From positions 1 to 64,000 of the forward strand of contig CAJAIK010000047.1 of assembly GCA_903939765.1 (NCBI GenBank): a stretch of 64,000 nucleotides of DNA, in the 5' to 3' direction. The notes below the pieces were generated by a model. The model saw only the letters and a list, made by a program, of their open reading frames with translations, ran no database searches and had not been told where the DNA came from. Shown here in pieces: positions 3,192-47,360 of this stretch (positions within the stretch are counted from its first letter, which is position 1; each line of letters opens with the position of its first letter). Origin of the DNA: an uncultured Chlorobiaceae bacterium (GTDB lineage: Bacteria; Bacteroidota; Chlorobiia; Chlorobiales; Chlorobiaceae). The translations under genes and the position numbers were made by a program.

Positions 3192-4186
3192 AGCTCTGGT
3201 TCTGTTTTTTTTCTGTTCTGGGCGATAGTTATGGCAAGCAGGGTTGCTTCATAATAGCTTCTTTCGTAGGCGACTCCTTTTCCGGCAATGGCAAAACCGG
3301 TGCCGTGGTCGGGCGATGTGCGCACAACAGGCAGGCCAAGGGTGACGTTTACCCCGGTGTCGAAGGCGAGCACCTTGAAGGGGAGCAGCCCCTGATCGTG
3401 ATACATTGCCACAACAATATCATAGTTACGGTACATTTTTGAGCCGAAAAAGCCATCGGCCGGAAAGGGGCCGTCTATCCGGAGTTGTCCTGAGAGCCTT
3501 TCGATGCAGGGACGGATAATCTCCTGCTCTTCGGAGCCCATCACCCCGCCGTCGGAGGCGTGGGGGTTGAGGCCGAGCAGGGCAATGCGGGGCGCGGCAA
3601 GGGCGAAATCTCTTTTCAGTGAGAGGGCCAATGCAGAGAGAAAGGCGTCAAGATCCATTGTTCGGATCAGGCCGGGAACACGCTGAAGGGGCTCATGAAT
3701 GGTGGCAAGGGCGACCTTGAGCTCCGTGACCGGGTCATAGAACATCATGGTGGGGGAGGGAACGGCGAACATTCGACCGAGAAAGCCCGTATGCCCCTTT
3801 TCGCTGGAGCCTGCCAGTGCAATTGATTCCTTGTTGATCGGAGCGGTAACGAGGGCGTTGCACACTCCTTCGCGGCAGAGTTCCGCCGCCGCACGGAGTG
3901 ACTCCAGGGCGAGCCTTCCCGCTTCAGCCGACAGGGTGCCGGGTATGATGTTTTCAGGTTCCGCAATGCTCAGCACAGGGAGGACGCCGCAAGGCACCTC
4001 AGTAGTCGCGCTTTCGACCAGTTTCAGCTCCACCGGCAGGTCAAGCGCATCCCGGTAATACTCCATCACACGGTATGAACCGGCGACAAGAAAGGAGTGG
4101 CCAAATCGAGCAAGCTTCAGAAAGCTTTTCAGTATGATTTCCGGCCCGATGCCGTGGGGGTCACCGATTGACCAGACAATGCGCAT
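3188..4186 (-). CDS. pdxA: 4-hydroxythreonine-4-phosphate dehydrogenase
   Basis: A 332-residue PdxA, which oxidises 4-phosphohydroxy-L-threonine in the DXP-dependent pyridoxal phosphate pathway. Family motifs are present throughout: GDPHGIGPEI at the N-terminus, LVTAPINKESI, GHTGFL, LNPHASDGG and VAMYHDQGLLPFK with the metal-ligand His, then RTSPDHGTGF. Length is normal. It lies 3 bases downstream of the DUF4293 gene and overlaps ftsE by 4 bases, forming a three-gene minus-strand run. Confidence 0.95.
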   Translation of the reverse strand: MRIVWSIGDPHGIGPEIILKSFLKLARFGHSFLVAGSYRVMEYYRDALDLPVELKLVESATTEVPCGVLPVLSIAEPENIIPGTLSAEAGRLALESLRAAAELCREGVCNALVTAPINKESIALAGSSEKGHTGFLGRMFAVPSPTMMFYDPVTELKVALATIHEPLQRVPGLIRTMDLDAFLSALALSLKRDFALAAPRIALLGLNPHASDGGVMGSEEQEIIRPCIERLSGQLRIDGPFPADGFFGSKMYRNYDIVVAMYHDQGLLPFKVLAFDTGVNVTLGLPVVRTSPDHGTGFAIAGKGVAYERSYYEATLLAITIAQNRKKTEPEL

Positions 4187-4189
4187 TGT

Positions 4190-4651
4190 TCAGAGCCGTT
4201 TGTATGCGTTGGCAATCTTGTCATCCTTTTTCACCCCTTTCAGCGCCATCCAGAGGAGTACTGGTTCCGGCAAAAGAATGAATAATCCTGCTTCAGGCTT
4301 GTGGGTGAACGCAACGCAGGTGCACAAATACTGGTTGAGGAAATGTGCAGCGGCAAGGCCCGAAAGCAGGTCTCCAAGGAAAAAGAGCATGCCAAGCAGA
4401 ATAAGTTTCTGCTGAAGCGCTCTTTTTTTATAAAAAAAAATGGCGGCAAGAGCGGCGACTGCGGTCAAGGGAGAAAAGATAGCTGCGGAATAGTTGCTGG
4501 TGACTTGCAGGATTCCCGCATCGGGGAATGAGGAGAAATCAGTGACAAAAAATAGCTTTGTGGTACTGAAACTCCAGAAAGGGAACATCATGCTCAATGC
4601 AGCAAGCAGAGCGACAAGAAAAAGGTAAAGAGTCTGAATTCTGGCGATCAT
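4190..4651 (-). CDS. DUF4293 family membrane protein
   Basis: A 153-residue protein with four hydrophobic segments. The first (IQTLYLFLVALLAALSMMF) follows MIAR, which is the typical opening of DUF4293, a family found in Bacteroidetes and Chlorobi. The start at 4651 was chosen over 4693 because it gives that N-terminus. Function is unknown. It heads the pdxA-ftsE run and is divergent from htpX, leaving a 178-base spacer that must carry both promoters. Confidence 0.75.
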   Translation of the reverse strand: MIARIQTLYLFLVALLAALSMMFPFWSFSTTKLFFVTDFSSFPDAGILQVTSNYSAAIFSPLTAVAALAAIFFYKKRALQQKLILLGMLFFLGDLLSGLAAAHFLNQYLCTCVAFTHKPEAGLFILLPEPVLLWMALKGVKKDDKIANAYKRL

Positions 4652-4829
4652 GGCTGTTACAGGGTTAAAGGTCATGAAAACATATAGCGCCAATATACAT
4701 AATCAGGAGAAAAGAGTCATTTATCTCCCGCTCTTTGCTGCGGCCAAATTTTATGGTAATTTCGTGAAATTTCTGTTGCCGGACATCGTCAAAATCAATA
4801 CCCATACCCATAACCTGTTTGAGAAAAAT

Positions 4830-5711
4830 ATGAAGCGCATTTTTTACTTTCTTGTGACCAACCTTGCCATTATGCTGGTGCTCTCGGTCACCCTGAGCGT
4901 CCTTGGTGTACAGCCTTATCTGAACGCCTCCGGCCTTGATTTGGGTAACCTGCTGGTTTTTTCCTTTATCATCGGGTTTGGTGGCGCCTTTCTCTCACTG
5001 GCGCTTTCAAAATGGTCTGCCAAGCGCATGTCGGGCGCTGTTGTGATTAAAAACCCCGCCACACCAACGGAACAATGGCTGATCAATACCGTAAGAAATC
5101 AGGCGCAGAGGGTTGGCATCACCATGCCCGAAGTGGCCATTTTCAACTCGCCGGAAGTCAACGCATTTGCCACCGGCATGACAAAAAACCGTTCACTGGT
5201 AGCCGTCTCTTCCGGCTTGCTCAATGCAATGACGCATGACGAGGCAGAAGGGGTGCTGGCGCATGAGATGTCGCACATCACCAATGGCGACATGGTGACG
5301 CTGACGTTGATTCAGGGCGTTCTGAACACTTTCGTCGTCTTCCTTTCACGCGTTATCGGCTATGCGGTCGATAAATTTGTTTTCGACACCAGACGGGGTA
5401 CGGGTCCGGCATATTTTTTGATCCGTATCGTTGCAGAGATCTTGCTTGGTATAGGGGCCTCTGTTGTGGTGATGTGGTTCTCGCGTCAGCGGGAGTTCCG
5501 TGCTGATGCCGGAGCGGCGGTGCTGGCAGGCAAACAAAAGATGATTGCTGCGCTCGAAAAGTTGCAGGCACAGCAGCTCCCAGCAGCCCTGCCCAGGCAA
5601 ATTGCCGCATTTGGAATTTCAGGCCGGGAGAGCCGGGGGCTCAGGAGGTTATTCTCCACTCACCCAACTCTGGATGAGCGCATTGCTCGGCTGCGCGGGC
5701 AGCAGTCATAA
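4830..5711 (+). CDS. htpX: Membrane protease HtpX
   Basis: A 293-residue M48B zinc metalloprotease that degrades damaged inner-membrane proteins. Two N-terminal membrane segments (MKRIFYFLVTNLAIML and a second near residue 40) precede the zinc site HEMSHITNGD. Two more hydrophobic segments follow, then the third zinc-ligand region REFRADAGAAVLAG, and the end TLDERIARLR is typical. The frame is open from 4650, but that extension reads into the divergent promoter region; ATG at 4830 gives the conserved N-terminus. No frameshift or missing residue is seen. Confidence 0.95.
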   Translation: MKRIFYFLVTNLAIMLVLSVTLSVLGVQPYLNASGLDLGNLLVFSFIIGFGGAFLSLALSKWSAKRMSGAVVIKNPATPTEQWLINTVRNQAQRVGITMPEVAIFNSPEVNAFATGMTKNRSLVAVSSGLLNAMTHDEAEGVLAHEMSHITNGDMVTLTLIQGVLNTFVVFLSRVIGYAVDKFVFDTRRGTGPAYFLIRIVAEILLGIGASVVVMWFSRQREFRADAGAAVLAGKQKMIAALEKLQAQQLPAALPRQIAAFGISGRESRGLRRLFSTHPTLDERIARLRGQQS

Positions 5712-10351: not shown

Positions 10352-10582
10352 AACCGTCGAGTCTCTCTTTGCCTCTCTGCGGTAGATTCTTTTCCTGTAA
10401 TATCCCCGATGATAGAGCTTGAATATCATTACTTAACCTTACGACTTTTATGAGCGAGAGCAAATCAACCAATGCCGAAGAGTATCGCATTACTGGCATT
10501 TATTTTCCTCATTTTCAGTTTTATTTGTTTTCTTTTGAAAAGTAAATGTTTATTCTTAAAAAAAGATAAATTCGTAATATGC

Positions 10583-10999
10583 ATGGAAGAGGAAACTAAT
10601 CTTGGTGCAAAAATTGCACATTTGGGCTTCATTCAGGGTGTGATTGATCGCATGGGCTCAAACTCATTCCTCTTGAAGGGATGGAGTGTAACGCTTGTGG
10701 CCGCTGTATTTGCGCTGTCCTCAAAAGATGCCGATCAGAGATTTATCCTTTTGGCGTATTTTCCGGTGATTGTTTTCTGGGTACTTGATGCCTATTTTTT
10801 GCATCAAGAGAAGCTTTTCAGGAAGCTGTATGAAAAAGTAGCCTCTGGCGATATATCCAGTAAAGAATTTGTTCTGAATACTGCCATAGTGCGAGACGAA
10901 GTGGCATCCGTAAGCAGTGTCTTTTTTTCAAAAACACTTTTTCTTTTTCATGGGCTTATTGTCAGTATTGTGACATTTGCGATGTGTTATCTGACTTAA
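10583..10999 (+). CDS. Small membrane protein of unknown function, next to the TIR gene
   Basis: A 138-residue protein with an amphipathic N-terminus (IAHLGFIQGVIDRMGSNSF), the motif LLKGWSVTLVAA leading into a hydrophobic hairpin (about residues 34-72), a charged central helix (HQEKLFRKLYEKV) and a last membrane helix near residues 118-136. I recall similar proteins widely in bacterial accessory regions but cannot name a family. ATG at 10583 is preferred because homologues, as I recall them, begin near here. The frame is open to ATG 10472, which would add another membrane helix; neither start has a strong ribosome binding site. It could be an effector acting on the membrane. Confidence 0.6.
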   Translation: MEEETNLGAKIAHLGFIQGVIDRMGSNSFLLKGWSVTLVAAVFALSSKDADQRFILLAYFPVIVFWVLDAYFLHQEKLFRKLYEKVASGDISSKEFVLNTAIVRDEVASVSSVFFSKTLFLFHGLIVSIVTFAMCYLT

Positions 11000-11168: not shown

Positions 11169-12515
11169 ATGAGCATTCGTGTATTCATAAGCCACAGTAC
11201 TATACCAAAAGAGGGTACCGCTATAGAAAATCGAGCAAAGCCTGCTCATGCAATACTTCTTCAGGAATTGCGCTTATACTTGGAGATGCAAACACATCCG
11301 AAATTTGATATAAGTTTAGATGAAAAAATAGCCGGCTCTAAAAATTGGCTTAAAACGACTCATACATATATAGAAAAATGTCAGGCAGCAATTATTCTTG
11401 TCAACAAGCAGGCATTAGGGCATTCTGATTGGATAACTACAGAAGTAATAATCCTTGGCCATCGTGCAATTTGCAATAAAAATTTTCGTCTTATTATTGT
11501 TCCTTTTGACAATGTCTCTGTGGAAGAGATAAAAAATAACGAATTATGGAAACCAATCGCACTTAGTACAACACAATTTGTCCCAAGAAATGGCCTGAAT
11601 GAAAATAATATAAAAGAAAAAACATCATTTTTTCGTGATGTGTTCAGTATTTTAAATGGGATTGAAGATTACGATGAACCTATACCTTCAGAGTGGTTAT
11701 TTCATTTGTTATGTGATTTGCTTCCTGATGATGATGATGTACTTCAACAGATTGCGGCTAAATTGGATATTATATATGATGAATATAAAAAATTATACAT
11801 AAAACGTAAAATTTCAAATTATTTATATTTAAATGGCCCGTTAGCCCTTCTTGAGTTAAAGAACTGTACAAAGCTTGTAAAAAAAGATTGGAATGGAGCA
11901 TTGATTCGTGATGTTCTGTGTACTTATTGGGTACATGCATCAGCATCTATTCGGATGTTTTCATGTTGTCATCCCAAGAAGGATTGCCATATATTTGCGA
12001 TCAATGGTAAGCAGGCGGGTTATACTCCAAGAACATATATCAGAAAAATATGTGGTGATAATGAGCCCTGGCCTGTAATTGAGGTTTTTGTAGATCATGC
12101 TGCAAGATATCAACAAGATTTTCAACAAAGTGTGACTGGACAGATTTGTAAATTACTTACTGAATACAAAGGATTTAAATCATCTGTAGATGTTATTTTG
12201 AAAGGAAAAGATTTAGCTCACTTGTCTGACAACGAGAAACTCATTCAAGCGTTAAACATTGTTCTCGAAAAAACAAGGGAAATACCGGTATTTGTTACTT
12301 TTGAACAAGTTGGCGGATTTATTTTAGACCACATTATCAACGAGATTCACGATAAATTTCGGCACCTGAATATCATTGTTTGCACGGGTAGTAAACCAGA
12401 AGAAAATCTGGATCTTCCTGGCTATATACATATGCTGACACCTCAATTAGATTTAGATAAAGAACAGAAAGAATTGAAAGCGTTTTTTACGGTAAACAGA
12501 ACATTAAATCTTTAA
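11169..12515 (+). CDS. TIR-domain protein, predicted NAD-consuming immune effector
   Basis: A 448-residue protein. Residues 1-150 are a TIR domain: the opening strand RVFISHS, the middle ISLDEKIAGSKNW, the strand AAIILVNKQAL and the catalytic helix S86-D87-W88 with Glu92, the SxWxxxE pattern of active TIR NADases. The C-terminal 250 residues have no motif I can name; a VFVTFEQVG strand and an IIVCTGSKPE strand resemble the Walker B and sensor strands of a P-loop NTPase, but no Walker A is seen, so an inactive STAND-like module is possible. The gene is visibly A/T-rich compared with its neighbours, as expected of transferred DNA. It ends 10 bases before the AAA gene, so the trio looks like one operon. 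Confidence 0.85.
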   Translation: MSIRVFISHSTIPKEGTAIENRAKPAHAILLQELRLYLEMQTHPKFDISLDEKIAGSKNWLKTTHTYIEKCQAAIILVNKQALGHSDWITTEVIILGHRAICNKNFRLIIVPFDNVSVEEIKNNELWKPIALSTTQFVPRNGLNENNIKEKTSFFRDVFSILNGIEDYDEPIPSEWLFHLLCDLLPDDDDVLQQIAAKLDIIYDEYKKLYIKRKISNYLYLNGPLALLELKNCTKLVKKDWNGALIRDVLCTYWVHASASIRMFSCCHPKKDCHIFAINGKQAGYTPRTYIRKICGDNEPWPVIEVFVDHAARYQQDFQQSVTGQICKLLTEYKGFKSSVDVILKGKDLAHLSDNEKLIQALNIVLEKTREIPVFVTFEQVGGFILDHIINEIHDKFRHLNIIVCTGSKPEENLDLPGYIHMLTPQLDLDKEQKELKAFFTVNRTLNL

Positions 12516-12525: not shown

Positions 12526-13545
12526 ATGGAAAGCATAACTGAATCACTTCCATACGAGCCAATAGTCAAGATTGAGAATATTGAGGACTTTCGTGATAAA
12601 AAAAATATGGTTGCCTATGGTGATCGGCGTGATGGCCTGCTCTATCGATATACCGATGAAGCAAAACTTGCAATCAATATTGCATTGGCGACAGGTCGCC
12701 CGCTTTTGATACTTGGCGCAACCGGATGCGGCAAGTCTTCACTCGCCTACAATCTCGCAAGGGTGATGAAGAGGCGATACTACGAGTTTGTTGTCACTTC
12801 CCGCAGTCAGGCGCGTGATCTGTTCTATCGGTATGATGCTGTACGAAGATTGGGAGACTCTCAGTTGGGTCGGAATGTCGATAAAAGATCAGGAGAAGCA
12901 TTTCAAGCTTGTGATTTTGCCTGGCAAACCTCTTTTCCTTATATCGAACCTGCTCCTCTTTGGTGGATCTTTGATCATGCTGGTGCCGCAAATCGGGGAT
13001 GTTCCGATGTTAACGTGTTATCGCATATTAAAAAGGCTAAAGATCCCGGAATTTACCCGGAAAAGTCTTATCCTGATGCCAGCTCAATACTGCTTATTGA
13101 CGAGATTGACAAAGCTGATCCCGATTTTCCGAACAATTTGCTGGTACCTCTTGGATCAAGGCAGTTTACCGTTGAGGAAATTGCGACAACCATAGCTATT
13201 GATTCCGCCAGACAGAGTGATGAACCTCTCAATCAACCACTGATTATTATTACCTCTAACCAGCAAAGAGAGCTTCCCGACACTTTTTTGCGGAGATGTA
13301 TTGTATTTAAAATTTCTTCGCCTGCACCAGAAGAGCTTGTTACACTTGCTGAAACGACGTTTGGTATTCGGAACGATAAGTTCTACAAAAATATTGCGAG
13401 TCGTCTGGAAGAGATACATGGAAAAGAACTCAGTGCAGCAGAGTTTTTGGACGCAGTGCAGGCTATAGAAAAGTTGAAAGCATCTAAATCAGCACACTCT
13501 GAAATCATTGAGCGAAGTTCATGGCGTTCAATAGAACGATATTAG
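12526..13545 (+). CDS. MoxR-like AAA+ ATPase of a conflict system
   Basis: A 339-residue AAA+ ATPase. Walker A is GATGCGKSS (64-72), Walker B LLIDEIDK (189-196), sensor 1 IITSN (241-245) and the arginine finger region FLRRC (254-258). The sequence after Walker A, TSRSQARDLFYRYDAVRRL, is typical of the MoxR-type ATPases encoded beside SAV_2336/vWA-like proteins in Streptomyces and cyanobacteria. Here too the next gene, 13 bases downstream, begins with a vWA-like region. Such ATPases are thought to remodel or license their partner; here that would be the giant NACHT protein. The specific role is inference. Confidence 0.85.
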   Translation: MESITESLPYEPIVKIENIEDFRDKKNMVAYGDRRDGLLYRYTDEAKLAINIALATGRPLLILGATGCGKSSLAYNLARVMKRRYYEFVVTSRSQARDLFYRYDAVRRLGDSQLGRNVDKRSGEAFQACDFAWQTSFPYIEPAPLWWIFDHAGAANRGCSDVNVLSHIKKAKDPGIYPEKSYPDASSILLIDEIDKADPDFPNNLLVPLGSRQFTVEEIATTIAIDSARQSDEPLNQPLIIITSNQQRELPDTFLRRCIVFKISSPAPEELVTLAETTFGIRNDKFYKNIASRLEEIHGKELSAAEFLDAVQAIEKLKASKSAHSEIIERSSWRSIERY

Positions 13546-13558: not shown

Positions 13559-16500
13559 ATGGACACTCTCTTACCAATCAGTCTGGCAGATGTAGCATAT
13601 GCTGTTCGGAGGCTTTCGCCCGATCAGGAAGCTTTTGAGTTAATTGCGGGGGTACTTGGTTTCAAAATAGAGAGTGATGATGTTATTGATAAAACAAAAA
13701 ACCCGTTACATCCTTTCATAGATACTGGTGGCAGGGTAAAATCAATAACGGAAATACCAAATTTACCCCAAAAAAACGAAGCTCCACCAAAGTCGTCACA
13801 CAAGAAGCCAGATGTGAATCTTGAAGGGGATTCTGATGGAGCTATCGTTGTTGAAACATTATCTCCCAGACGTTCCTGGGAGCTTCCTCCATATATCGAG
13901 CAGTTCGCCCCTCTGGACTCCGCTGCATTTTCATTACTTGCAACGCAACCACGACCTTTGCTGCCACGACACCAGGCAAGGAGCTTTGTATGGGAAATGC
14001 TTGCCCAGGATCTCCCTTCAACTGAGATTGATTGCGATGCCATTATAGATCAATTATCCAGAGGGTTGATTCCTGAACTACGATTTCTCAACAGAAAGTC
14101 TATTCGAAAAAGAGTGCATCTTCTGGTTGACGAGAGCCAGGTTATGCTGCCCTACAGCAATGATATGCTTGATTTGCAGCGCTCTATTAAAAACGTCGCA
14201 GGGCAAAGCTTGTCAGGTGTTTTTTCTTTCGATGAACTGCCAGACAGGGGTGTTGCAAAATCTACAGGTGAACAATTATCGAGCTATCCTTTTCCCGGCC
14301 CAGAAACAACGATTTTGCTGGTTAGTGACCTTGGTGTTACTCGGCCTTTTGGTTACCAGCATGTTTCAGCCAACGAATGGGCTGGCTTTTTGAAGAGGCT
14401 TGTGGGATCGGGCTGTCGTGTTCTTGTTGTTTCACCCTATGACGAAGATCGGCTGGGTAAGTTACACTACGAAGGGGTTTCAATTGTTCATTGGGCAACA
14501 AAGCATCATTCAAACACCACAGTTTCTGTTCAGGATTTTGCACGACTCCTTTCTCCGGCAGCATTATTGGATATGGCATTTATTCGAGAAGCGCGAATAA
14601 AGCTCTTTCCTGAAGCCAGTCCAGGATTGGAAGCTGACCTGCTTTTCAGTTGGCTGATTGCAGTATTCAATTCGCGAGTGGTCTCTTTTCGGCAGGAAAC
14701 GGTTCGAGCGTTGCGTGAAGAGCTGAAAAGTAAACCATTTGAATTAGAAAAAGCGCTCGATTTTTTGAAAAAGTATCGTGCTGGTGAAAACGAGCAATCT
14801 CGGTTTCGATTACCAGAGAGAGTTATATTTGAGGAGCAATTGGTCACGGATGCATTGACTGAAAATAAAGCGAGTGTTGAGCAAGCTTTAGAGAGAATAA
14901 TTCGTTCACTGGTTGACGACGACATGAATCCCAAGCTTGCTCGATGGGCAATAGCTGTTGCTGAAGAATTGCCTGCATCGGTTACTGATGCCCCATCATA
15001 CCGTGATCTTAAATTGGCAGCCCAGTTAAGGCTTGGAATTATTTCGCAAGATTTTCATGCACCTGATCGTGACAATACCTCTGATGGAAATCGTTCATGG
15101 CTGTTACCAAAAGAGGTCAAGCTTGGAATTAGACGGGAGAACGGGAAGCTTATTATTAGCGATTCTCTTAAGGGTGCAGAAAGAAGCATCAACGTACCCG
15201 GAACAGTACCGCGTCATTTAGTCGTTGAGAAAGAGAAAGAACGAGTCTCTGTTCAAATATGGCCTGGGCAACCAGATGTTTCTCTGCCTTTTGGTTTGCC
15301 GATGGAGATTTCTTCTCCTTTGTCAGGGGTGCGTTATGATTTGCATAAAACTGAATTTCCGCCGGATGAGCTTCTGATTTTCATCGGGCATAGTGACGAT
15401 GCTTCAGCAGAGGCGCAAGCCATTGTTGAATTGCAATCGGAGATTGAGATGGAATTTGAACTGTTGAGAAAAGTATCTGACGGACGTTCACCATTTCGCC
15501 GCATCAGGCTATGGGAGTGGAGTATTGATGAACGAGCAACAACCGCCGATCAGGAAGCGGTGGTGACACCGGCTCTTGATCACGCCCATATAGCCATTTT
15601 TGTTTTCAGGGATCGGGTTGGAAAAGTCACCTGGCAAAAGCTTGAAAAGGCCAGAAAGGGGAGCCCGGCAACACAGCCTTATGTTTTTGCGTTTTTCCCT
15701 GAGACTCCTCCTCTTCGGGAAACGCATCCAAATGATCAAGCCAAAGAGCAGGCCGCTCGTGATTGGGCAACACTAATGAAACGTAAGGAAGAGTTGACGA
15801 GGGCGTGGACAAACCCTTATTCCACTGCAGTGACGCCTTGCCCAACCTATCAGGATAGCGAAGGACTCAAGACCGTGGTGCGTGAAAAGGTGCGGAGTGC
15901 GATTGCTGACATTCTTTTAGACGATATATCCCGCCCGACAGCAGTGGAGCTGACGAACAATGCAGATGCGTTGCGTCGTTATCAGGAAGCGCTCAAAGAA
16001 GAACTTGGCACTATCAGCTTGCTAGGTATCCCAATGCTTGAGAGCGTTCCGGTAAATCTGACCGATACTTTTGTTCCTTTGCATATTTCCGATATCTGGA
16101 GAAGTGAGAAGCGTTATATACGGCAAACGGAAACGCAAAGTTCTTCTCCAGAAAAAGTCATGAGTGTGGCTTTCACAAATAACAGACTTCTTCTTGTTAT
16201 TGGCGACCTTGGTTCAGGCAAAACAACGCTTTTAAAGTATTACGCTTTATCTTGCCTTGACAACAAGGGGTATAAAAAGCTTGGTTTTAAAAAGCCTGTG
16301 GTGGTTCTTTACCTCCCGTTGCGTGAACTCATGCGGGCAGAACGTGGCGATTACGAATCTCTTCCTTTCAACTTGTCTGCATGGTCTGATAAACATTCGC
16401 TCAATGTTTCGGAATCCTTTTTTTCCGATTGGCTGCATACCCGTCAAACCCTTCTTCTGCTCGATGGCCTTGACGAAATCAGAGAGCCAGAACAGAGGGT

Positions 16501-18454
16501 GAAGGCGTGTTATTGGATTGATCAAGTCGTAAACGCTTTTCCAAAAACCCGCGTTGTGGTAACTTCCCGTTCTACCGGCTACCGAAAAGATGACGGGATA
16601 GAACTTCAATCCCTGCATGTTCGAGCTGATATCATGGACTTTTCTCCAGAGCAGCAGGCAGCGTTTTTGCATCGCTGGTTCAAAGCGGCGTTTCTTGCAG
16701 AGCTTCCTCCAGATAGAGCTGAAAAGGCGGAGTGGCAAAAACAGCAGAAAGAGAAGGCTGCCAAAATTGAAAAGGCCATTGTTACATTTCTTGCTGAAGA
16801 GAGCAATAAACGGTTACGTCTGCTGGCAGGAGTGCCTTTGCTGTTGCAGATTATGGCTATGCTCTGGAAAGAACGCAATTATTTGCCGAAATCTCGTGTG
16901 GAGTTATTTGATGTCGCTATAAAATATATACTTGATTATCGAGACCGACGACGGAAGATTTCTCTCTTGCTGAGTGCTGAAGATGCCCTGCGGGTGCTAA
17001 GTCCGGTTGCTCTCTGGATGCAGGAAGAGCTGCAAACAGATGAGGCAGATCGGGAGACCATGCAGGAGAAAATGCAGGAGTTGCTCAATACGCTCAACCA
17101 TTCACTCGATACGCGCAACAATTCACTGCCTGCCACAGATTTTTGCCGGAACCTTGTTGACCGGGCTGGTCTGCTGGTTGAGTATGGTGAAAAAGAGTAT
17201 GTTTTTCGCCATAAATCATTCCGCGAGTACCTTGCGAGTGTTGCATTAGTCAGAAAAGTTAGCAGAACTTCCGGTTATCTTGACCAGCTTGTTACTCGCT
17301 TTGGCGACGACTGGTGGGAAGAAACACTTCTTTTTTTTATTGGACAGGTTGATGGGGAGGTTTTTGACGCCTTTCTGCAACGGCTTTTCGATTCGCCAAT
17401 CAGTGACGAGTTGTCACAAAAGCAGCAGTATTTGCTGATTACCCTCGTTGAGGAAGCACCAGAGCGACGGATTGATGCGTTGCGGAAGAAACTGCTTGAC
17501 CCATCAACGACTCCCAACAGGCAGCGATATATCTTAGAATGCCTGAAAACCATAGGTACAACAGATGCCCACGACGCGGTGCAGAGGTCCATTGAAACGG
17601 GCATTGCCGATAACGCTGTTCTACATTTCGCCTGTGATATCAGCGGAACCAAAGAGCTGCCTTTTTCGGTAGTGCTGTCTGACAAGCTTGGTGCGCAATA
17701 CGTTTTAATTAAGGGAGGAACGTTCATGTACTCATTGACAAAAAAAACAGAAAATGTTCCGGACCTTTATTTTGCTAAATACAAGCTTACAAACGAGCTT
17801 TATCGATGCTTTATCAATTATCTGGATGCAAAAGAGCCATCTTATGAGCGTGTTGTCCCATTAGAAAAGTTCAAAGAAATGCTGTTGGCGAAGTCAAGAG
17901 GTATTAAGGGATTCAGTGACTATCTGAAAAATGAAACGTCGCTCGTCAAGAGTTTTTGTTCAGATTCGGACAATAATATACAGTTCAATAAAAAGGATCA
18001 ACCCGTTGTGGCGGTATGTTGGTATGCGGCGACAGCTTATTGTTATTGGCTCTCCCTTGTTGAGAGCGGCGGAGATGATACTAACCTGTATCGTTTGCCA
18101 ACAGAAAAAGAGTGGGAATATGCCGCTGGCGGACAAGAGGGCAGAATCTATCCATGGGGCAACCAGGCACCGTCATCAACACTGGCGAACTACAACGAAA
18201 ATGAGGGTGCAACAACACCTGTGGGGCGTTATCCTGATGGCGCTACACCGGAGGGCTTGTTTGATATGGCCGGTAATGCGAGAGAGTGGATGGAGTCCTG
18301 GTATGATAAAGATGTTCGTTCATTGCGTGGGGGTTCGTGGCTCAGTGAAGTTGATGCGTTATGTTGCTCTTCACGAGGAGGAAACTTTCCGGGGAGTAAA
18401 GCCTATGATTATGGGTTTCGGGTCGTTCGTTCAAGTGCGTCTGTGATCTTGTAA
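13559..18454 (+). CDS. 1631-residue vWA-like / TIR-like / NACHT / FGE-like multidomain protein
   Basis: Four modules can be read. (1) Residues 186-312 resemble a vWA domain as in SAV_2336-type proteins: VHLLVDESQV with a degenerate metal site (DESQV instead of DxSxS), later LLVSDLG and RVLVVSPYD. (2) Residues 604-715 look like a TIR- or DUF4062-like Rossmann module (LLIFIGHSDD, then HAHIAIFVFRDR). (3) Residues 877-1010 are a NACHT NTPase: Walker A GDLGSGKTT (882-890), Walker B LLLLDGLDE (965-973), sensor VVVTSRSTGYR; a helical region follows to about 1370. (4) Residues 1379-1627 are formylglycine-generating-enzyme-like: KGGTFM, YRLPTEKEWEYAA, YPWGN, GLFDMAGNAREWM, LRGGSW, GFRVVR; the catalytic cysteine pair of true FGEs is not conserved, so this is probably a recognition fold. 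No signal peptide or membrane segment is seen. Best guess: a cytoplasmic STAND-type sensor. Confidence 0.85.
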   Translation: MDTLLPISLADVAYAVRRLSPDQEAFELIAGVLGFKIESDDVIDKTKNPLHPFIDTGGRVKSITEIPNLPQKNEAPPKSSHKKPDVNLEGDSDGAIVVETLSPRRSWELPPYIEQFAPLDSAAFSLLATQPRPLLPRHQARSFVWEMLAQDLPSTEIDCDAIIDQLSRGLIPELRFLNRKSIRKRVHLLVDESQVMLPYSNDMLDLQRSIKNVAGQSLSGVFSFDELPDRGVAKSTGEQLSSYPFPGPETTILLVSDLGVTRPFGYQHVSANEWAGFLKRLVGSGCRVLVVSPYDEDRLGKLHYEGVSIVHWATKHHSNTTVSVQDFARLLSPAALLDMAFIREARIKLFPEASPGLEADLLFSWLIAVFNSRVVSFRQETVRALREELKSKPFELEKALDFLKKYRAGENEQSRFRLPERVIFEEQLVTDALTENKASVEQALERIIRSLVDDDMNPKLARWAIAVAEELPASVTDAPSYRDLKLAAQLRLGIISQDFHAPDRDNTSDGNRSWLLPKEVKLGIRRENGKLIISDSLKGAERSINVPGTVPRHLVVEKEKERVSVQIWPGQPDVSLPFGLPMEISSPLSGVRYDLHKTEFPPDELLIFIGHSDDASAEAQAIVELQSEIEMEFELLRKVSDGRSPFRRIRLWEWSIDERATTADQEAVVTPALDHAHIAIFVFRDRVGKVTWQKLEKARKGSPATQPYVFAFFPETPPLRETHPNDQAKEQAARDWATLMKRKEELTRAWTNPYSTAVTPCPTYQDSEGLKTVVREKVRSAIADILLDDISRPTAVELTNNADALRRYQEALKEELGTISLLGIPMLESVPVNLTDTFVPLHISDIWRSEKRYIRQTETQSSSPEKVMSVAFTNNRLLLVIGDLGSGKTTLLKYYALSCLDNKGYKKLGFKKPVVVLYLPLRELMRAERGDYESLPFNLSAWSDKHSLNVSESFFSDWLHTRQTLLLLDGLDEIREPEQRVKACYWIDQVVNAFPKTRVVVTSRSTGYRKDDGIELQSLHVRADIMDFSPEQQAAFLHRWFKAAFLAELPPDRAEKAEWQKQQKEKAAKIEKAIVTFLAEESNKRLRLLAGVPLLLQIMAMLWKERNYLPKSRVELFDVAIKYILDYRDRRRKISLLLSAEDALRVLSPVALWMQEELQTDEADRETMQEKMQELLNTLNHSLDTRNNSLPATDFCRNLVDRAGLLVEYGEKEYVFRHKSFREYLASVALVRKVSRTSGYLDQLVTRFGDDWWEETLLFFIGQVDGEVFDAFLQRLFDSPISDELSQKQQYLLITLVEEAPERRIDALRKKLLDPSTTPNRQRYILECLKTIGTTDAHDAVQRSIETGIADNAVLHFACDISGTKELPFSVVLSDKLGAQYVLIKGGTFMYSLTKKTENVPDLYFAKYKLTNELYRCFINYLDAKEPSYERVVPLEKFKEMLLAKSRGIKGFSDYLKNETSLVKSFCSDSDNNIQFNKKDQPVVAVCWYAATAYCYWLSLVESGGDDTNLYRLPTEKEWEYAAGGQEGRIYPWGNQAPSSTLANYNENEGATTPVGRYPDGATPEGLFDMAGNAREWMESWYDKDVRSLRGGSWLSEVDALCCSSRGGNFPGSKAYDYGFRVVRSSASVIL

Positions 18455-18500
18455 AAACACCCTTATTTGGTTTCATTAATACAATAATAATTCATTGGAG

Positions 18501-19565
18501 ATGATAAAGTCGGTAACGCTTGAAAATTTTATGGGCTATAGCAAATTTGAGAGCAAGGAATTTGCGGCAGTCAATGTGATAATTGGGAAAAATGATACGG
18601 GCAAGTCTGGTTTGTTGAAATTGCTGTATTGTGCTGCTAAAACAGTGGATATATATAGCATGAGGTCAAAAAATAGCGATGTTGAGCTCAAAAAGCTTTT
18701 GGCCGAAAAAATGCTTGATACTTTTCAACCGGGCAAGAAAGGGTTGGGTGAGTTGGTCAGTAAAATCACAAAAGAAAAACTTTCTGTTGATATTGAGTTT
18801 AAACACTTGAAGTTGTCTTACGAAGACAGGTTGCATTTTACTTTTGGAGATGCGACAACCAATACCATTGTGGATTGCCAGAAAAGTATAAAACCAATCA
18901 CGGAAAATTTTCGATGTTTGTTTATTCCTTCGAAAGAAGTTCTTACTTCCCTCAAAGCAATACGTGCAACACGTGACAATTTACATATACCTGGTTTTGA
19001 TGATACGTATCAGGATTTAATAAGAGCTTTGGTTATTCCTGGACAAAAAGGAAATGTCAAGGTTGAGCTTAAAGATGTAAATATAATGTTGGAAGATCTG
19101 TTTGAAGGTCAAATTGAACAGGGAAGCGATGACGATTTTATTTTCAAGAAAGGAAATACTGAATATCCTATACAACTCACTTCAGAAGGTGTGAAAAAAA
19201 TCGGGATACTGACGACATTAATTCGCAACAGGCAACTTAATGCTAACTCTTTATTATTTTTGGATGAACCTGAAACGACCTTGCATCCTGAAGCGGCAAG
19301 AGAACTGGTTGAAATGCTTATGCTGATGGCCAAATCAGGAATTCAGATATTTTTAGCTACCCATAATTATTTTGTTTTAAAACAACTGCACCTTTCTGCT
19401 ATGCGTGATGATGTTACAACGAATTGCTATTCTTTGAGTCGTGAAAAAGGGAGATCAATTGAGTATTCAGTGAGTGACTTGAAAAATGAGTTTCCTGATA
19501 ACCAGATATCAAATGAAGCCATAAGAATGTCTGATGAAGAAGTGCGACTTGATTTAGGCCTTTAA
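18501..19565 (+). CDS. AAA_15/AAA_21-type ATPase
   Basis: A 354-residue ABC/OLD-like ATPase. It opens MIKSVTLENFMGYSKF, with Walker A GKNDTGKS (29-36), a signature-like LTSEGVKKIGIL, Walker B SLLFLDEPETTLHP and a switch His in ATHN. This single-domain form occurs in many defence pairs where it gates a small effector. TTG at 18495 would add two residues; ATG 18501 is given as start, although the GGAG just before it is too close to be an ideal ribosome binding site. The next gene begins 4 bases after its stop, so the two are surely co-expressed. The spacing of 46 bases from the NACHT gene leaves it open whether all five genes form one operon. Confidence 0.85.
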   Translation: MIKSVTLENFMGYSKFESKEFAAVNVIIGKNDTGKSGLLKLLYCAAKTVDIYSMRSKNSDVELKKLLAEKMLDTFQPGKKGLGELVSKITKEKLSVDIEFKHLKLSYEDRLHFTFGDATTNTIVDCQKSIKPITENFRCLFIPSKEVLTSLKAIRATRDNLHIPGFDDTYQDLIRALVIPGQKGNVKVELKDVNIMLEDLFEGQIEQGSDDDFIFKKGNTEYPIQLTSEGVKKIGILTTLIRNRQLNANSLLFLDEPETTLHPEAARELVEMLMLMAKSGIQIFLATHNYFVLKQLHLSAMRDDVTTNCYSLSREKGRSIEYSVSDLKNEFPDNQISNEAIRMSDEEVRLDLGL

Positions 19566-19569
19566 ATTT

Positions 19570-20091
19570 GTGATTATGCCAGGATTTAAAGAAAGTAATA
19601 TTACGCTTGAGTTCCCTGATGAAAATTTTTTTCGCTTTTCATCGTGTGCAGGGTATAAGGTCCTCTCTGGAAATCATTTTAAAGAGATGGATGCTTGCTG
19701 GTATGATTCTGTGAGCAATTCATATTGGCTTATTGAGCTGAAAGATTTTTCATTGGCATCGCTGACGACACCCGATACTATTGAGAAAAAATCGTGGGAT
19801 ATGGTGAAGAAGGCTATTGACAGTCTTTGTATGTTTCTTTCAAGTAAGCATTTTTATCCATACGCAGCATCTCTTAATCCATGCTTTCCTTTTGTTCCGG
19901 ATTCGCGTACTCAATATTACTTTATAACTATAGTACATTGTGATAACTCGCAAAAACCTGATATTCAACTGTTAAATGAGAAATTCAGGCGTAAATTTAG
20001 TCCTTATGCTAAATTATTTGGAATTACTAATTATTCCGTAATGGAACATTCAACTGCAATAAGAGTTATTCCAAATAATATGGTACTGTAA
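19570..20091 (+). CDS. Small PD-(D/E)XK-like protein paired with the ATPase
   Basis: A 173-residue protein with no family I recognise. The segment from residue 38, KEMDACWYDSVSNSYWLIEL, then KDF, has Asp41, Glu56 and Lys58 on two adjoining strands: the D-(X)n-E-x-K spacing of restriction-like nucleases. Later RTQYYFITIVHC is a hydrophobic strand as in that fold. It starts with GTG at 19570 (ATG at 19576 is the alternative), 4 bases after the ATPase stop. If the motif is real, it would be the nuclease effector of a two-gene ATPase/nuclease system. The call rests on one motif and context only. Confidence 0.5.
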   Translation: MIMPGFKESNITLEFPDENFFRFSSCAGYKVLSGNHFKEMDACWYDSVSNSYWLIELKDFSLASLTTPDTIEKKSWDMVKKAIDSLCMFLSSKHFYPYAASLNPCFPFVPDSRTQYYFITIVHCDNSQKPDIQLLNEKFRRKFSPYAKLFGITNYSVMEHSTAIRVIPNNMVL

Positions 20092-31743: not shown

Positions 31744-32730
31744 TCAACTCTTTTTTATTGGTCGCTTGCCAAGGAGCAATATGCGTGAGGGGTTGTATTT
31801 TGAGGCAATCTGTTCCAGAAAAATCGGCCCGATGAGTCCAAAGGTAAGGCCAAGGATAAAAAGCCACCAAATGCTGGTTATGCCGATTTTTTCAAAGATG
31901 ATTCTCGATGCTGCCGTAAAAAAAATATGAAACAGGTAGATGGAGTAGGAGTAGATGCCAATTCTCGCAAGAAACGCAGACTCAACCTCTGTAAAGAGTA
32001 GCGCAGTGCAGAAGGTGGTACCGATGATGAGCGCATTTAATGAGCGTCGTTGCCCGCCATATTGTTGACCGTAGAAAACAAGAAAGAGCATGAGAGCCGT
32101 GAGAAGCAGATAGCCGAGTGCTTTTTGGTTTTTGAAATGCATCGGAAAGCGGGAGCAGTAGAGACCGGCGAGAAAGTAGGGAAAGAGATAGATGGCACCA
32201 GCAATCGACAACCATGGCGTTCCGGCATTGGTGACATAAAGGATTGCTGCAATGACAAAAAGGAGTGCAAAGCTTTTTTTGTTATGCAAAACCCTGAAGT
32301 GTTCAAGGGGTATGAGAAGGAGAAAAAGAAGAAAAAGCGATTCAATGAACCAGTAGTGCGCTACAGGAAGCAGGTGCAAAAAACGCCAGTCAGTTACGGT
32401 GGAGTTTGTTCCTGGGGTAAATGTTTTAAAAAGGGCGAAGAGTGTCCCGACAAAAAGCATAGGAATGATCAGGCGTCGTATTTTGCCAGATACAAATTTT
32501 TTCCAGTCAGATGAAAAGGGTCGCCAGGCATAGACAATACCAGAAAGAAAGGTGAAGATCGGCATGCGGATATAGAGAAGGAGCGCGTTTGCATCTTTCA
32601 GTACTCCTTCTTGCACATGAAGTCCGTTGTCTGGAGCGATGCCGATGACATGGTAGGCAACCAGAAGAATGCAGGCAAAGCCTCTGAGTGTATCAATAGA
32701 GCTGTTTCTGTTTACAGTGAGTGTTGTCAT
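31744..32730 (-). CDS. Acyltransferase family 3 membrane protein
   Basis: A 328-residue acyltransferase-3 (OafA/WecH-like) with about 10 membrane helices. The N-terminal SIDTLRGFACILLVAYHVIG, with its conserved Arg and His, is diagnostic. Such enzymes acetylate or succinylate extracellular polysaccharide. ATG 32730 was chosen: it overlaps the stop of the preceding gene by 4 bases and gives the family start; the longer form from 32793 would overlap that gene much further. Confidence 0.88.
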   Translation of the reverse strand: MTTLTVNRNSSIDTLRGFACILLVAYHVIGIAPDNGLHVQEGVLKDANALLLYIRMPIFTFLSGIVYAWRPFSSDWKKFVSGKIRRLIIPMLFVGTLFALFKTFTPGTNSTVTDWRFLHLLPVAHYWFIESLFLLFLLLIPLEHFRVLHNKKSFALLFVIAAILYVTNAGTPWLSIAGAIYLFPYFLAGLYCSRFPMHFKNQKALGYLLLTALMLFLVFYGQQYGGQRRSLNALIIGTTFCTALLFTEVESAFLARIGIYSYSIYLFHIFFTAASRIIFEKIGITSIWWLFILGLTFGLIGPIFLEQIASKYNPSRILLLGKRPIKKS

Positions 32731-33236
32731 GTGATTGATTCTTTGTGTTTTATCTTTCTGATGGAGCTTGTAAGCCATACAAGGAGAGCCCAAAACATCA
32801 GGAACAGTTCAAGACCGAATCCCCATTGTGTAAAATAATGCCCTCCTTCTGAACTCTCAGTTATCAGTGAAAATTGTTTGTCTGAGAATGGTGCCAACCA
32901 AAGGATATGGCCGGTAACGGTATCGAGTATCAGATGAATAAGGGCGTTCAGCGTGAAAATAAAACATAATGCCGGAACTTTGCTCCATGTTTTCTGGAGT
33001 CGTAACCATAAGAGTGAAATCAGCAACAGGGAAAGCCAGAAAATCGGGAAGTGGGTAACGTAGTTGTGATGATAGGCCTGATCAATCAGGAGGGAATAGA
33101 GCAAATCGGTATCGGGCGCAATTGCACCAAACAGGCCCCAGAATATGAATGTTTTGTAAAACAACAAGCAATTTTCAAGCCTTTCCGATAGTAACTTTGA
33201 GATAACATATCCGGCAGGCAGATGTCCAAAAATCAT
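32727..33236 (-). CDS. YdjM-like (DUF457) membrane metal-dependent hydrolase
   Basis: A 169-residue membrane protein with five hydrophobic segments. The opening FGHLPAGYVISKLL and GAIAPDTDLLYSLL, followed by YHHNYVTHF and LIHLILDTVTGHI, fit the DUF457/YdjM family of predicted membrane-bound metal-dependent hydrolases. It overlaps the acyltransferase gene by 4 bases. Its role in polysaccharide metabolism is unknown. Confidence 0.75.
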   Translation of the reverse strand: MIFGHLPAGYVISKLLSERLENCLLFYKTFIFWGLFGAIAPDTDLLYSLLIDQAYHHNYVTHFPIFWLSLLLISLLWLRLQKTWSKVPALCFIFTLNALIHLILDTVTGHILWLAPFSDKQFSLITESSEGGHYFTQWGFGLELFLMFWALLVWLTSSIRKIKHKESIT

Positions 33237-33315
33237 TGTTCGTCCTTAAACTGCTCTGTTTGGGTAAGGGTTGATTTTATTGAAACCCGATCTGTTGGCT
33301 TTTTCATGCAAAACT

Positions 33316-34026
33316 TTACAGTATAATTTGTGTGGCTATATGGTAGATAATTCTGAGATCATCAAACATGGAGGCCATCTCATAGGTTGTAAGAAAGAGG
33401 AGCATATAAAAGAGGGCTGGAGATTTTTCAGACCAGACAATCAGCGGCTTTACAACCAGCATGTTGATTTTTTTGCTGTTGTGCAGAAGGAGTGTAATCA
33501 AAACCCCGATAACAGCTCCAGCGATAATGTCTGTAGGATAGTGCAATCCAAGGTAGATTCTCGGAAGAAGAACAATTGATATGACGTAAAATAATGTGGC
33601 AACTCCGACTCTTTTTGATATCAGCCATATTCCCGTTGCAAGACTGAGCATGAATGTTGCATGGTCACTTGGAAAAGAGCTCATGCCATCGAATATGCGG
33701 TGACCAAGACCGTAAGGAATAACAAAATGCATGGCAATATTTGTTATTGGTCTTGGTCTGAATGGAAGCGTCAAGGCAAGCAATCTGCCGATGAAAATCG
33801 CGACAAAACATGCAAGTAACGTTATTATAACCTGCTCCCGCAGACGCGATGATGAGGCATCGTTCCTCTTCTCTTTATGGAACCAGAAAAACCAGAGTAC
33901 TGTAATTGGAATAGCTCCCTTCAAGAGATGATTTTCGGAAATTGCCCATAACAGGTAATCGAAATGGCGTGATGTTTGCGCAAAGCTGTTAACGTATGCA
34001 AGTATTGACGCGTCAAAAGTATTCAT
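33316..34026 (-). CDS. PAP2-family membrane phosphatase
   Basis: A 236-residue membrane phosphatase. The three PAP2 signatures are visible: KEKRNDASSSRLRE preceding a helix (motif 1 is weak), MSSFPSDHATF with its catalytic His and RIYLGLHYPTDIIAG with the second His and Asp. In a polysaccharide cluster it could dephosphorylate undecaprenyl diphosphate released after polymerisation. It lies 26 bases after the upstream glycosyltransferase. Confidence 0.87.
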   Translation of the reverse strand: MNTFDASILAYVNSFAQTSRHFDYLLWAISENHLLKGAIPITVLWFFWFHKEKRNDASSSRLREQVIITLLACFVAIFIGRLLALTLPFRPRPITNIAMHFVIPYGLGHRIFDGMSSFPSDHATFMLSLATGIWLISKRVGVATLFYVISIVLLPRIYLGLHYPTDIIAGAVIGVLITLLLHNSKKINMLVVKPLIVWSEKSPALFYMLLFLTTYEMASMFDDLRIIYHIATQIIL

Positions 34027-34052
34027 GTTTTTCCGCTCATAAGATCGTTTTG

Positions 34053-35243
34053 TTACTTTTTTTCAGGTTCTCGTGTTGTTCTGACCCATGTATTGCTTTT
34101 TTTGTGAACAACCATTGCAATATAGAGTGGAATTTTCCAGACAACATAGAGTGGGGCGGCTGCGAGGTAAAGCCATGTTGAGAGCGGTGCATGGCGCTGG
34201 ATCTGCCCTGAGATGACGTAGAGTATCAAAATAAGCCAGAATGATGCAGCAAGCATAAGCCATAAACCCTTGAGCGCCAAAAAAGCTCCTGCTGTTGCTG
34301 CCGTGAAGAGCATGACGAGAAGGGAGAGCGGGGGGGTTGCCAGTTCGGCAAGGGCATAAAGGTAGCGTGAATTGCCTGTTGAAGCAAAAAGTTTGAGCAG
34401 TGGGCCTGCCATTTTTTGCACAAGCATGAAACGGCCACCTTCCCATCGGCTTCTTTGCGTTGAGGCGCTGCTGCCAGAGGTCACCATTTCACTTCGTATA
34501 ACGGCGTCGGGATTGTAATGGACGCTGATGTTGTCTTGAAGCAGGCGCAGGGTGAACTCCATGTCTTCGACAATAGAGTGGCATGGCCAGCCATATCGCT
34601 GGAGGAGGCTGGTACGGAAGGCCATGCCATTGCCTTTCAGGACAGCCGTTCCTGACAGCCTGACCGAACCGGCCATACGCAGATGGTTGAAGACGTTGAA
34701 GGCAGCATCGATCAGTGCTGGCCGCCATCCTGCATCCGGGTTACTGACACCGTTATAGGCCTGAACAGCCTGAATAGCCGGATTACTGAGGGTTGCACTG
34801 ATTTCACGAAGGTAGTTTTTATCGGGCGCGACATCAGCATCGATAATGGTGATAAGGTCGGTGTGGCCATAGATATCCGCGTGGTTTTTCAAAAACCAGT
34901 CGAGTGCCTGACCCTTTCCCCGGCTGACATTGTCAAAGCGTTCGCAGGCAATCGCTCCTGCATGACGTGCCTGCTGTGCGGTATTGTCGGTACAGTTGTC
35001 GGCAATAACGTACACTTCAAATCGGTCGGGAGGGTAATCAGATGCGAGGATGGCTTTAACCGTGCGTTTAATTCCCTCTTCTTCGTTATGGGCGGGGATC
35101 AGAACACCAATGCTGAGTAACCGGTTTTCACCATATACCTCTTTTTTGAAGAGATATGCGGCGAAGGTCGTCATCAGCAGATAGCCTGCAGGCAAGGCAA
35201 GTATGATAAGCAGGCATTTGAGCAGGATTTCTATTAGCATCAT
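34053..35243 (-). CDS. Membrane glycosyltransferase family 2 (processive-type motifs)
   Basis: A 396-residue GT2. An N-terminal membrane helix is followed by the GT-A fold: VLIPAHNEEEGI, the metal-binding DAD in LITIIDADVAPDKN, an acceptor-site SIVEDMEFTL and the QRSRWEGGR motif, matching D,D,D,QxxRW of cellulose- or hyaluronan-synthase-like enzymes. Three to four membrane helices close the protein. Its stop lies 26 bases before PAP2 and its start overlaps the previous gene by 4 bases. Confidence 0.88.
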   Translation of the reverse strand: MMLIEILLKCLLIILALPAGYLLMTTFAAYLFKKEVYGENRLLSIGVLIPAHNEEEGIKRTVKAILASDYPPDRFEVYVIADNCTDNTAQQARHAGAIACERFDNVSRGKGQALDWFLKNHADIYGHTDLITIIDADVAPDKNYLREISATLSNPAIQAVQAYNGVSNPDAGWRPALIDAAFNVFNHLRMAGSVRLSGTAVLKGNGMAFRTSLLQRYGWPCHSIVEDMEFTLRLLQDNISVHYNPDAVIRSEMVTSGSSASTQRSRWEGGRFMLVQKMAGPLLKLFASTGNSRYLYALAELATPPLSLLVMLFTAATAGAFLALKGLWLMLAASFWLILILYVISGQIQRHAPLSTWLYLAAAPLYVVWKIPLYIAMVVHKKSNTWVRTTREPEKK

Positions 35244-36460
35244 GGTGTCAGCTCTTCCTCCTGAAAAAGGGTAACCATACCCTGGTTATTGGTATGCTGG
35301 TTATAGAGCGCAATAACTTTTTTTCTGCCTGCTGTTCCAAGTTCGCGGCGTTGTTGGGGGTTGCCAAGGAGTTTTCGGATCTGGTTGGCAAGATCCGCCT
35401 CGTCTCCAGGCGTGGCAAGCAGTCCATCTTTTTCGTGTTCAATCAGTTCCGGTATGCCGGTAATACGGGTAGAAATAACGGCGATCTCTTTCGCCATGGC
35501 CTCCATCAGTACGACCGGGACTCCTTCGGCAAAGCTTGCAAGCACAAAGAGATCTGCCCGGTCATAAACGTCGCGGACTTTATCCTGCCCGAGTGCACCA
35601 GTAAAGGTGACTGTGCCGTTCAGATTGCCTGATGTTGCAGCTTTTTCAAGTATTTGCCGGTCAGGGCCGTCGCCTACAATGGTGAGGTGAAATTGAAGAC
35701 CCTCATTTTTCAGGAGTGCGCAAGCTTTGAGCAGGATATATTGCCCTTTGGCTGCTACCAGCCTGCCGACACAGAGAATGTTTGGCAGAGCGTTGCCAGG
35801 TTCTGGTCTCGGAGTATAGAGGTCAGGATCGACTCCGCAGCGGACAATGTGGAGTTTGTGCCAGGCTTCTGGTGCGCTGATGCGCATGATCTGGCTCAGG
35901 CAGTAGTGGCTTATGCAGCGCACAAAGGCGGCTTTGCTGATTTTTTCGGCAAGCATGGCCGAATCAACCGTGTAGAAGATATCCGGGCCATGCACGGAGA
36001 TGCTGTAGCTTACTCCGCCATAACTCTTCATCAGTATTGCTACGATGGCGGTAGGGTTTGCAAAGTGCTCGTGAATGTGGGTAATGTTGTGCCGGTGCAG
36101 CCATTGCAGAAGAATACCTGCTTCGGCAAAATAGGCAGCGGCTTTCAGCGGGCTTTTCGGTCCATTGGTCAGCAGTCGCAAGCCAGATGCGGCCATGCGC
36201 AGGTATCCGGCAGGGTTTTTCTTCAGACAGTGCAGATGAGCGCCAAGCATTGAGAGGAAAGGCATGGAAAGAACCATAAGGGTTCGATTCGCCTCCTCTT
36301 GTTCCGCAGGAGTCATGACGGCAAGGTTTTCCGGCAGTCTTATGGATGCCGTATGTACCGTCATTCCGCCTTTTCGGAGTGACTCGATTTCCCGGTAGAT
36401 AAAGGTGTGGGAAATTGCAGGGTACTGGCTGCAGAGATAGGCTATCGCTTTTGCTGTCAT
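35240..36460 (-). CDS. Glycosyltransferase family 4 (group 1)
   Basis: A 406-residue GT-B glycosyltransferase. The N-terminal domain has YLCSQYPAISHTFIYREIES and a HEHFANPTAIVAIL strand; the C-terminal nucleotide-sugar site is LPNILCVGRLVAAKGQYILL, VGDGPDR and ADLFVLASFAEGVPVVLMEA with the EX7E pattern. It overlaps both neighbours by 4 bases. Donor and acceptor cannot be predicted. Confidence 0.9.
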   Translation of the reverse strand: MTAKAIAYLCSQYPAISHTFIYREIESLRKGGMTVHTASIRLPENLAVMTPAEQEEANRTLMVLSMPFLSMLGAHLHCLKKNPAGYLRMAASGLRLLTNGPKSPLKAAAYFAEAGILLQWLHRHNITHIHEHFANPTAIVAILMKSYGGVSYSISVHGPDIFYTVDSAMLAEKISKAAFVRCISHYCLSQIMRISAPEAWHKLHIVRCGVDPDLYTPRPEPGNALPNILCVGRLVAAKGQYILLKACALLKNEGLQFHLTIVGDGPDRQILEKAATSGNLNGTVTFTGALGQDKVRDVYDRADLFVLASFAEGVPVVLMEAMAKEIAVISTRITGIPELIEHEKDGLLATPGDEADLANQIRKLLGNPQQRRELGTAGRKKVIALYNQHTNNQGMVTLFQEEELTP

Positions 36461-37548: not shown

Positions 37549-37555
37549 TGTCAGA

Positions 37556-38653: not shown

Positions 38654-38659
38654 GCTCTG

Positions 38660-39073: not shown

Positions 39074-39136
39074 TGTTCATTATTTGATCTAAGAATGTTA
39101 TCGATGTAATTGCAATAGCAAAAAAGCTCAGGGCGA

Positions 39137-40540: not shown

Positions 40541-40553
40541 AGTGTACTTGTAA

Positions 40554-43306: not shown

Positions 43307-43466
43307 AGTCAGCCCTTTTTCAGTTTAAAGTGTGCAATTATTACCGCATCACTTCCGGATTTTATGATACTAACCGTCGTGATAGAGGTTGGACTTGCAG
43401 TATGCGTGATGACAAGTGAATGAACAAGGTTCACCATATGTATGTATTATCTTATAAAGAAAGTTG

Positions 43467-45577: not shown

Positions 45578-45654
45578 GTGGTTGCTCCCTCTTCAAGGTT
45601 AATACTCCTCAGTTTGATCTTCCGGGAACCAGTTTGCCCATGGATCATGTGCCC

Positions 45655-46782: not shown

Positions 46783-46839
46783 TGTATAACGAGTGCTGAG
46801 TGTCAGGGATTGAAGATGTCAAGAGTACTTGTTTCTCAT

Positions 46840-47352: not shown

Positions 47353-47360
47353 AGGCAGCG

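Follow-up and report, generated by a model that had tools for sequence, protein, structure and literature searches.

RESULTS

Gene content of the operon and module order of P0001

The window, the whole 64,000-nucleotide stretch of Chlorobiaceae DNA that was analyzed, carries a tight forward-strand operon that encodes a PDC-M50A protein, a TIR protein, a MoxR ATPase, the large protein P0001, HEC-02A, and HEC-02B. P0001 is read from an ATG start through a single open reading frame of 1,631 residues with no internal stops. The operon genes and the segments of P0001 are as follows.

10472..10999, forward: 175-residue small membrane-type protein (candidate two-transmembrane), PDC-M50A (PADLOC, E 3e-47)
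11169..12515, forward: 448-residue protein with a TIR domain and a putative degenerate STAND-like C terminus, candidate iSTAND third component (TIR_2, AlphaFold2, Foldseek)
12526..13545, forward: MoxR-type AAA+ ATPase (AAA_5, 6e-13; bpMoxR, 9e-7)
13559..18454, forward: P0001, vWA/TIR-like/NACHT/FGE fusion (open reading frame, Pfam profiles, AlphaFold2 model)
14114..14491, forward: candidate vWA-like region of P0001, residues 186-311, with D190 and D257 kept (weak profile match, AlphaFold2, alignment)
14549..15349, forward: conserved core of P0001, residues 331-597, helical and then beta (AlphaFold2, operon comparison)
15359..15928, forward: TIR-like Rossmann module of P0001, residues 601-790 (AlphaFold2, Foldseek, 24-member family)
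16184..16687, forward: NACHT NTPase of P0001, residues 876-1043 (Pfam, E 3.5e-16)
17699..18430, forward: FGE/C-type-lectin fold of P0001, residues 1381-1624 (Pfam FGE-sulfatase, E 8e-39)
18353..18420, forward: segment of P0001 equivalent to the variable repeat of sister genes, not matched by a template repeat (template comparison)
18495..19565, forward: HEC-02A, candidate-defense ATPase (PADLOC, E 2e-101)
19570..20091, forward: HEC-02B partner (PADLOC, E 7.5e-26)

The preliminary description had read P0001 as a fusion of four modules, and that reading holds, at the positions it gave, for a single intact open reading frame in which NACHT and FGE are assigned by Pfam, the Rossmann module by AlphaFold2, and vWA weakly. 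The NACHT domain has intact Walker A (GDLGSGKTT) and Walker B (LLLLDGLDE) motifs. The closest PDB match of the FGE end is SUMF2, a noncatalytic protein, and the DGR variable protein TvpA (2y3c) was also matched; the cysteines of the FGE segment, judged by inspection, comprise only the adjacent pair C1602-C1603. The proposed role of this end in recognition is plausible.

The N-terminal half was assessed with an AlphaFold2 model of residues 1 to 860. Residues 604 to 712 were modeled as a parallel Rossmann sheet with pLDDT values mostly between 70 and 93, and the MAL TIR domain was among the top Foldseek matches for the module spanning residues 601 to 790 (probability 0.99, E 0.02), as were flavodoxin-like folds; no Foldseek match fell below E 0.001, a PDB sequence search with the module profile returned nothing significant, and the alignment contained no unambiguous catalytic Glu. 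None of the 24 members of the module family matched Pfam TIR or DUF4062 models, so that of the initial label "TIR/DUF4062-like," the TIR-like Rossmann part stands for P0001 and the DUF4062 part is not recognizable; two further operon copies have a DUF4062-like module here instead. The vWA fold of P0001 is a candidate assignment drawn from weak profile matches and a low-confidence model. The best vWA profile, VWA_CoxE, matches residues 241 to 315 at E 1e-3, below the curated cutoff, and two relatives weakly match the same part of the profile, while a PDB sequence search with a vWA profile gave nothing significant. Over this stretch pLDDT is mostly 24 to 64, a low-confidence range, and the modeled order fits a vWA domain (strand 186-189, helix 200-214, strand 251-255, helix 271-283, strand 287-292, strand 307-311). 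Mixed alignments misplaced vWA fragments, and this part was aligned from three sequences only. The earlier description of the metal site as degenerate holds only in part, since both D190 (strand 1) and D257 (strand 4) are present. Of the two cores that the preliminary description expected within the first 800 residues, vWA and Rossmann, the Rossmann core was found, and the vWA order fits at low confidence.

MoxR, with intact Walker A (GATGCGKSS) and Walker B (LLIDEID) motifs, adjoins P0001 directly across a 13-bp gap. Of five homologues of the 448-residue protein, four matched TIR_2 (best, 6e-17), and the TIR glutamate E92 is invariant in the alignment of all five. Its AlphaFold2 model (pLDDT 66) has the plant TIR-NB-ARC protein RPP1 as top Foldseek match (E 8e-5); the C-terminal half has no Pfam match, including iSTAND, and no Walker motifs were seen by eye. 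The model and this one match make the C terminus a candidate STAND region, and the protein is consistent with the inactive-STAND third component described by Kaur et al. (2020, PMC7159879). The 175-residue protein has no significant Pfam match and is a candidate SLATT-like protein by position alone, a SLATT_1/DUF4231 protein standing at the equivalent position of a related Streptomyces operon. No operon protein matched the VMAP models (VMAP-M/VMAP-C). Elsewhere in the window, PucC is encoded near the operon, and genes for polysaccharide export and biosynthesis (Poly_export/SLBB, glycosyltransferase, acyltransferase) lie on the reverse strand at 31744-50548.

A constant core and an exchanged payload

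A search for the same architecture in other genomes, as the preliminary description had proposed, recovered the operon in four Chlorobiaceae genomes, with differing C-terminal modules. Of 395 genomes of the phylum, 4 encode the vWA part (residues 1 to 597), and these four are also the ones that encode the 448-residue TIR protein, each time at the locus of the vWA part. Conservation of the PDC-M50A protein, MoxR, and HEC-02A amounts to 76 to 88% in the G063 and G083 operons. The core gene order recurs on a Streptomyces plasmid (L101) as DUF4231/SLATT, TIR, MoxR, vWA, and CHAT/TPR, with vWA and effector encoded by separate, overlapping genes.

Comparison of three operons, with P0001 as the reference against G063 and G083, placed an exchange junction at about residue 597. 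Residues 1 to 597 are 72 to 82% identical to those of P0001, and identity at the C terminus falls to 21 to 41% across operons. In G063, residues 598 to 798 are 19% identical, a DUF4062-like module standing in their place, followed by NACHT at 51% and FGE at 41%. The G083 operon keeps a TIR-like module at 63% and NACHT at 61 to 64% identity, and has an unrelated end of about 469 residues (L093, 8429-9835) in place of FGE. That end matched no model in Pfam, NCBIfam, or PADLOC, for which reason a Nudix label given by eye was dropped; it is possibly an unknown sensor or effector domain. The HEC-02B gene of G083 (L093, 11054-11263) seems truncated, with similarity only to residues 104 to 173, unlike its HEC-02A, which is 88% conserved. 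The vWA fusion of the G009 operon is broken by a frameshift at about residue 361 (L092, 8635-9801 and 9638 onward); since the break falls within one continuous homologous region, we rejected a natural split into two genes, and the frameshift may be a sequencing error, a pseudogene, or a programmed shift.

Residues 598 to 798 of P0001, and especially residues 800 to 1628, belong to a large family of stand-alone proteins. P0001 was matched in 57 of 86 family genomes and its TIR-like module in 18 of 86, and the family commonly includes proteins of about 1,020 to 1,080 residues that lack a vWA part and run in the order TIR-like, NACHT, and FGE. A further payload combination is seen in G070 (G070:C136, L100), where two NACHT-FGE proteins of about 1,500 residues carry HATPase_c_4 (RecG-type) and then DUF4062 before NACHT. 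The NACHT domain of G083 shares 84% identity with stand-alone genes and 61% with P0001, and for that of G063 the figures are 70 to 72% and 51%; for P0001 itself, the best match is also a stand-alone gene, by the small margin of 64% versus 61% for the G083 operon copy. The simplest reading of this comparison is that the C-terminal payload has been replaced repeatedly at one junction, and the identities, rather than a rooted tree, suggest that capture ran from the stand-alone pool into the operon.

In our view P0001 is probably the vWA subunit of a ternary conflict operon comprising MoxR, vWA, and a TIR/STAND-like protein, the subunit that varies and carries the sensor; its C-terminal half is likewise probably an NLR-like payload from the stand-alone TIR/DUF4062-NACHT-FGE family, attached behind the vWA core. 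An unlikely alternative is that P0001 is a stand-alone NLR with a TIR-like effector, a NACHT domain, and an FGE sensor, which merely has a vWA N terminus; MoxR and the TIR protein upstream would then be bystanders. The abundance of family members lacking a vWA part and the Rossmann/TIR-like fold of the internal module speak for this alternative, but the vWA part is always accompanied by MoxR and the 448-residue TIR protein (four of four genomes), a canonical catalytic Glu is not assignable in the internal module, and a DUF4062-like module replaces the TIR-like one in two of the four operons, so that the latter is not the constant effector. It is improbable that the operon is a housekeeping MoxR-vWA chaperone for metal or cofactor insertion rather than a defense system: many MoxR-vWA pairs are maturation chaperones (PMC7159879), and VWA_CoxE is the best vWA profile here, but the patchy distribution of the operon, its rapid module exchange, and its TIR/NACHT/HEC-02/PDC-M50 content all argue against such a role.

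Diversity-generating retroelements act on sister genes but not on P0001

No reverse transcriptase or template repeat had been seen in the window, and a scan of the rest of the assembly (99.4% complete, 128 contigs) found diversity-generating retroelement (DGR) reverse transcriptases, template repeats, and variable repeats. There are six RVT_1 matches in the genome, three of them within DGRs with recognizable template repeats. In the DGRs of contigs C87 and C16, nearly all differences between the template and the variable repeats of adjoining FGE targets fall at template A positions. The third DGR, on contig C97 of the same genome (G000:C97, L046), comprises the following.

4902-4969, reverse: template repeat (read from the contig, codon pattern)
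3665-4714, reverse: reverse transcriptase beside the template (YVDD and IGNLTSQ motifs)

Four contigs carry at least five NACHT-FGE genes whose variable repeats match the C97 template, the non-A mismatches being 0, 0, 0, 1, and 3 at 62 non-A sites and the changes 12 to 17 at the 28 template A sites; shuffled templates gave at least 31 non-A mismatches. Because one template is common to five genes on four contigs, the retroelement acts in trans. Near-identical AAC-repeat templates with the same A pattern occur in G063, G065, G083, and G084. A Fisher test on 23 variable repeats is inflated, since the search pattern fixed the non-A bases, and the unbiased evidence comes from the genes found by protein search.

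A sixth NACHT-FGE locus, frameshifted, matches the C87 template at 66 of 66 non-A sites. On C87 (L048, about 45.3-49.0 kb), the gene is frameshifted just before the variable repeat, and the detached repeat still agrees with the template at every non-A site; the frameshift is either an assembly error or the mark of a recently broken target. By eye, the N terminus of this gene is a candidate phosphoesterase-like region. The C16 locus (L053, 47.8-54.5 kb) is a second defense-like DGR locus, with a reverse transcriptase, a template, an 874-residue FGE target, an AAA gene similar to the MoxR gene of the window, and, by eye, an upstream candidate TIR-like gene.

The corresponding segment of P0001 has 20 non-A mismatches to the C97 template at the same 62 sites, and a search for an A-degenerate template for P0001 that allowed unlimited A mutagenesis and up to 3 mismatches found no site in the genome. 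When the 3' end of P0001 was the BLASTN query, paralogues were recovered and no template repeat, probably because the AAC repeats are of low complexity. The 20 non-A mismatches and the lack of a template in the genome indicate that the P0001 sensor is frozen, which extends to the whole genome the earlier impression, gained from the window, that this gene is not diversified; of the NACHT-FGE loci examined in this genome, only the ternary-operon copy escapes hypermutation. That a DGR nevertheless rewrites the FGE end of P0001 in trans, an idea prompted by the reverse transcriptases in the genome and a template serving at least five dispersed sister genes, is scarcely credible against these mismatches and this search, unless a template sits in a gap of the assembly. 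The G063 and G009 operon copies likewise proved to lack a template in the same test.

DISCUSSION

The constant part of the operon resembles the iSTAND-type MoxR-vWA ternary systems described by Kaur and coworkers (Kaur et al. 2020, PMC7159879), with which it has in common a MoxR ATPase and a candidate vWA subunit, a third component with an N-terminal TIR domain followed by a putative STAND-like region, and an FGS domain at the C terminus of the vWA subunit. In those systems, the C-terminal effectors on the vWA subunit are variable, FGS being the most common and TIR also known (PMC7159879). The preliminary description had remarked that P0001 joins parts usually split between proteins; the fusion stands, but with P0001 probably serving as vWA subunit in an operon conserved across genomes, the remark describes a known theme of ternary systems. 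Unlike the iSTAND type, the 448-residue third component matches no Pfam iSTAND model, P0001 bears the whole TIR-like-NACHT-FGE payload, and a PDC-M50A gene and a HEC-02 pair are attached. A close counterpart in a single protein is the target of DGR 7 of Thiohalocapsa PB-PSB1, which unites vWA, phosphodiesterase, NACHT, and C-type lectin in one MoxR-ternary protein, and the targets of DGR 3 in the same organism are NACHT-C-type lectin proteins (PMC10907252). P0001 has a TIR-like module where the DGR 7 target has the phosphodiesterase; that target is part of a VMAP system and, unlike P0001, undergoes diversification (PMC10907252). P0001 also shares an intact NACHT domain, an N-terminal module, and a C-terminal sensor with bacterial NACHT/STAND (NLR-like) defense proteins, but differs from them in the MoxR-associated vWA core in front and the separate TIR protein alongside. 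Multitarget DGRs are recorded for Pelodictyon phaeoclathratiforme (four variable repeats) and Chlorobium phaeobacteroides (two) in the sections of the DiGReF survey cited here (DiGReF 2012, PMC3521204), which also note distal variable repeats and stable paralogues without a variable repeat; those sections neither tie a stable paralogue to a ternary operon nor mention exchange of a NACHT-FGE payload. What appears to be new is an exchangeable payload common to a constant ternary core and to an NLR-like family hypermutated in trans, with the captured copy frozen.

We suggest that the operon is most likely an abortive-infection sensor-switch that signals through the neighboring TIR protein. The mechanism that we infer takes its frame from Kaur et al. 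2020 (PMC7159879) and, for the sensor, follows the proposal made by Dore et al. 2024 (PMC10907252); the ligand, the order of events, catalysis, and the anti-phage role are predictions. The FGE/C-type-lectin end would bind an invader protein, NACHT would oligomerize with ATP, and the vWA-MoxR pair would then remodel the complex and release or cluster the TIR-STAND-like protein. The TIR domain of the 448-residue protein may cleave NAD+, either depleting it or producing a nucleotide signal that the small membrane-type protein would receive; the infected cell would then die or arrest before the phage matures.

Ternary MoxR-vWA systems and DGR-diversified NLR-like sensors are predicted defense classes that have had little or no experimental testing in the literature compared. 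Earlier descriptions mostly set these two strategies next to each other; P0001 links them, and in this family they have exchangeable parts in common. The junction, the template repeat, and both frozen and diversified siblings are identified, so that experiments on sensor exchange and on what hypermutation does in bacterial immunity become concrete. More tentatively, we raise the possibility of a two-tier repertoire in which a trans-acting DGR hypermutates a pool of NACHT-FGE genes and recombination captures copies behind the MoxR-vWA-TIR core. If this is true, a captured sensor would no longer be rewritten and would be kept as a fixed specificity, in a manner analogous to the storing of a selected receptor.
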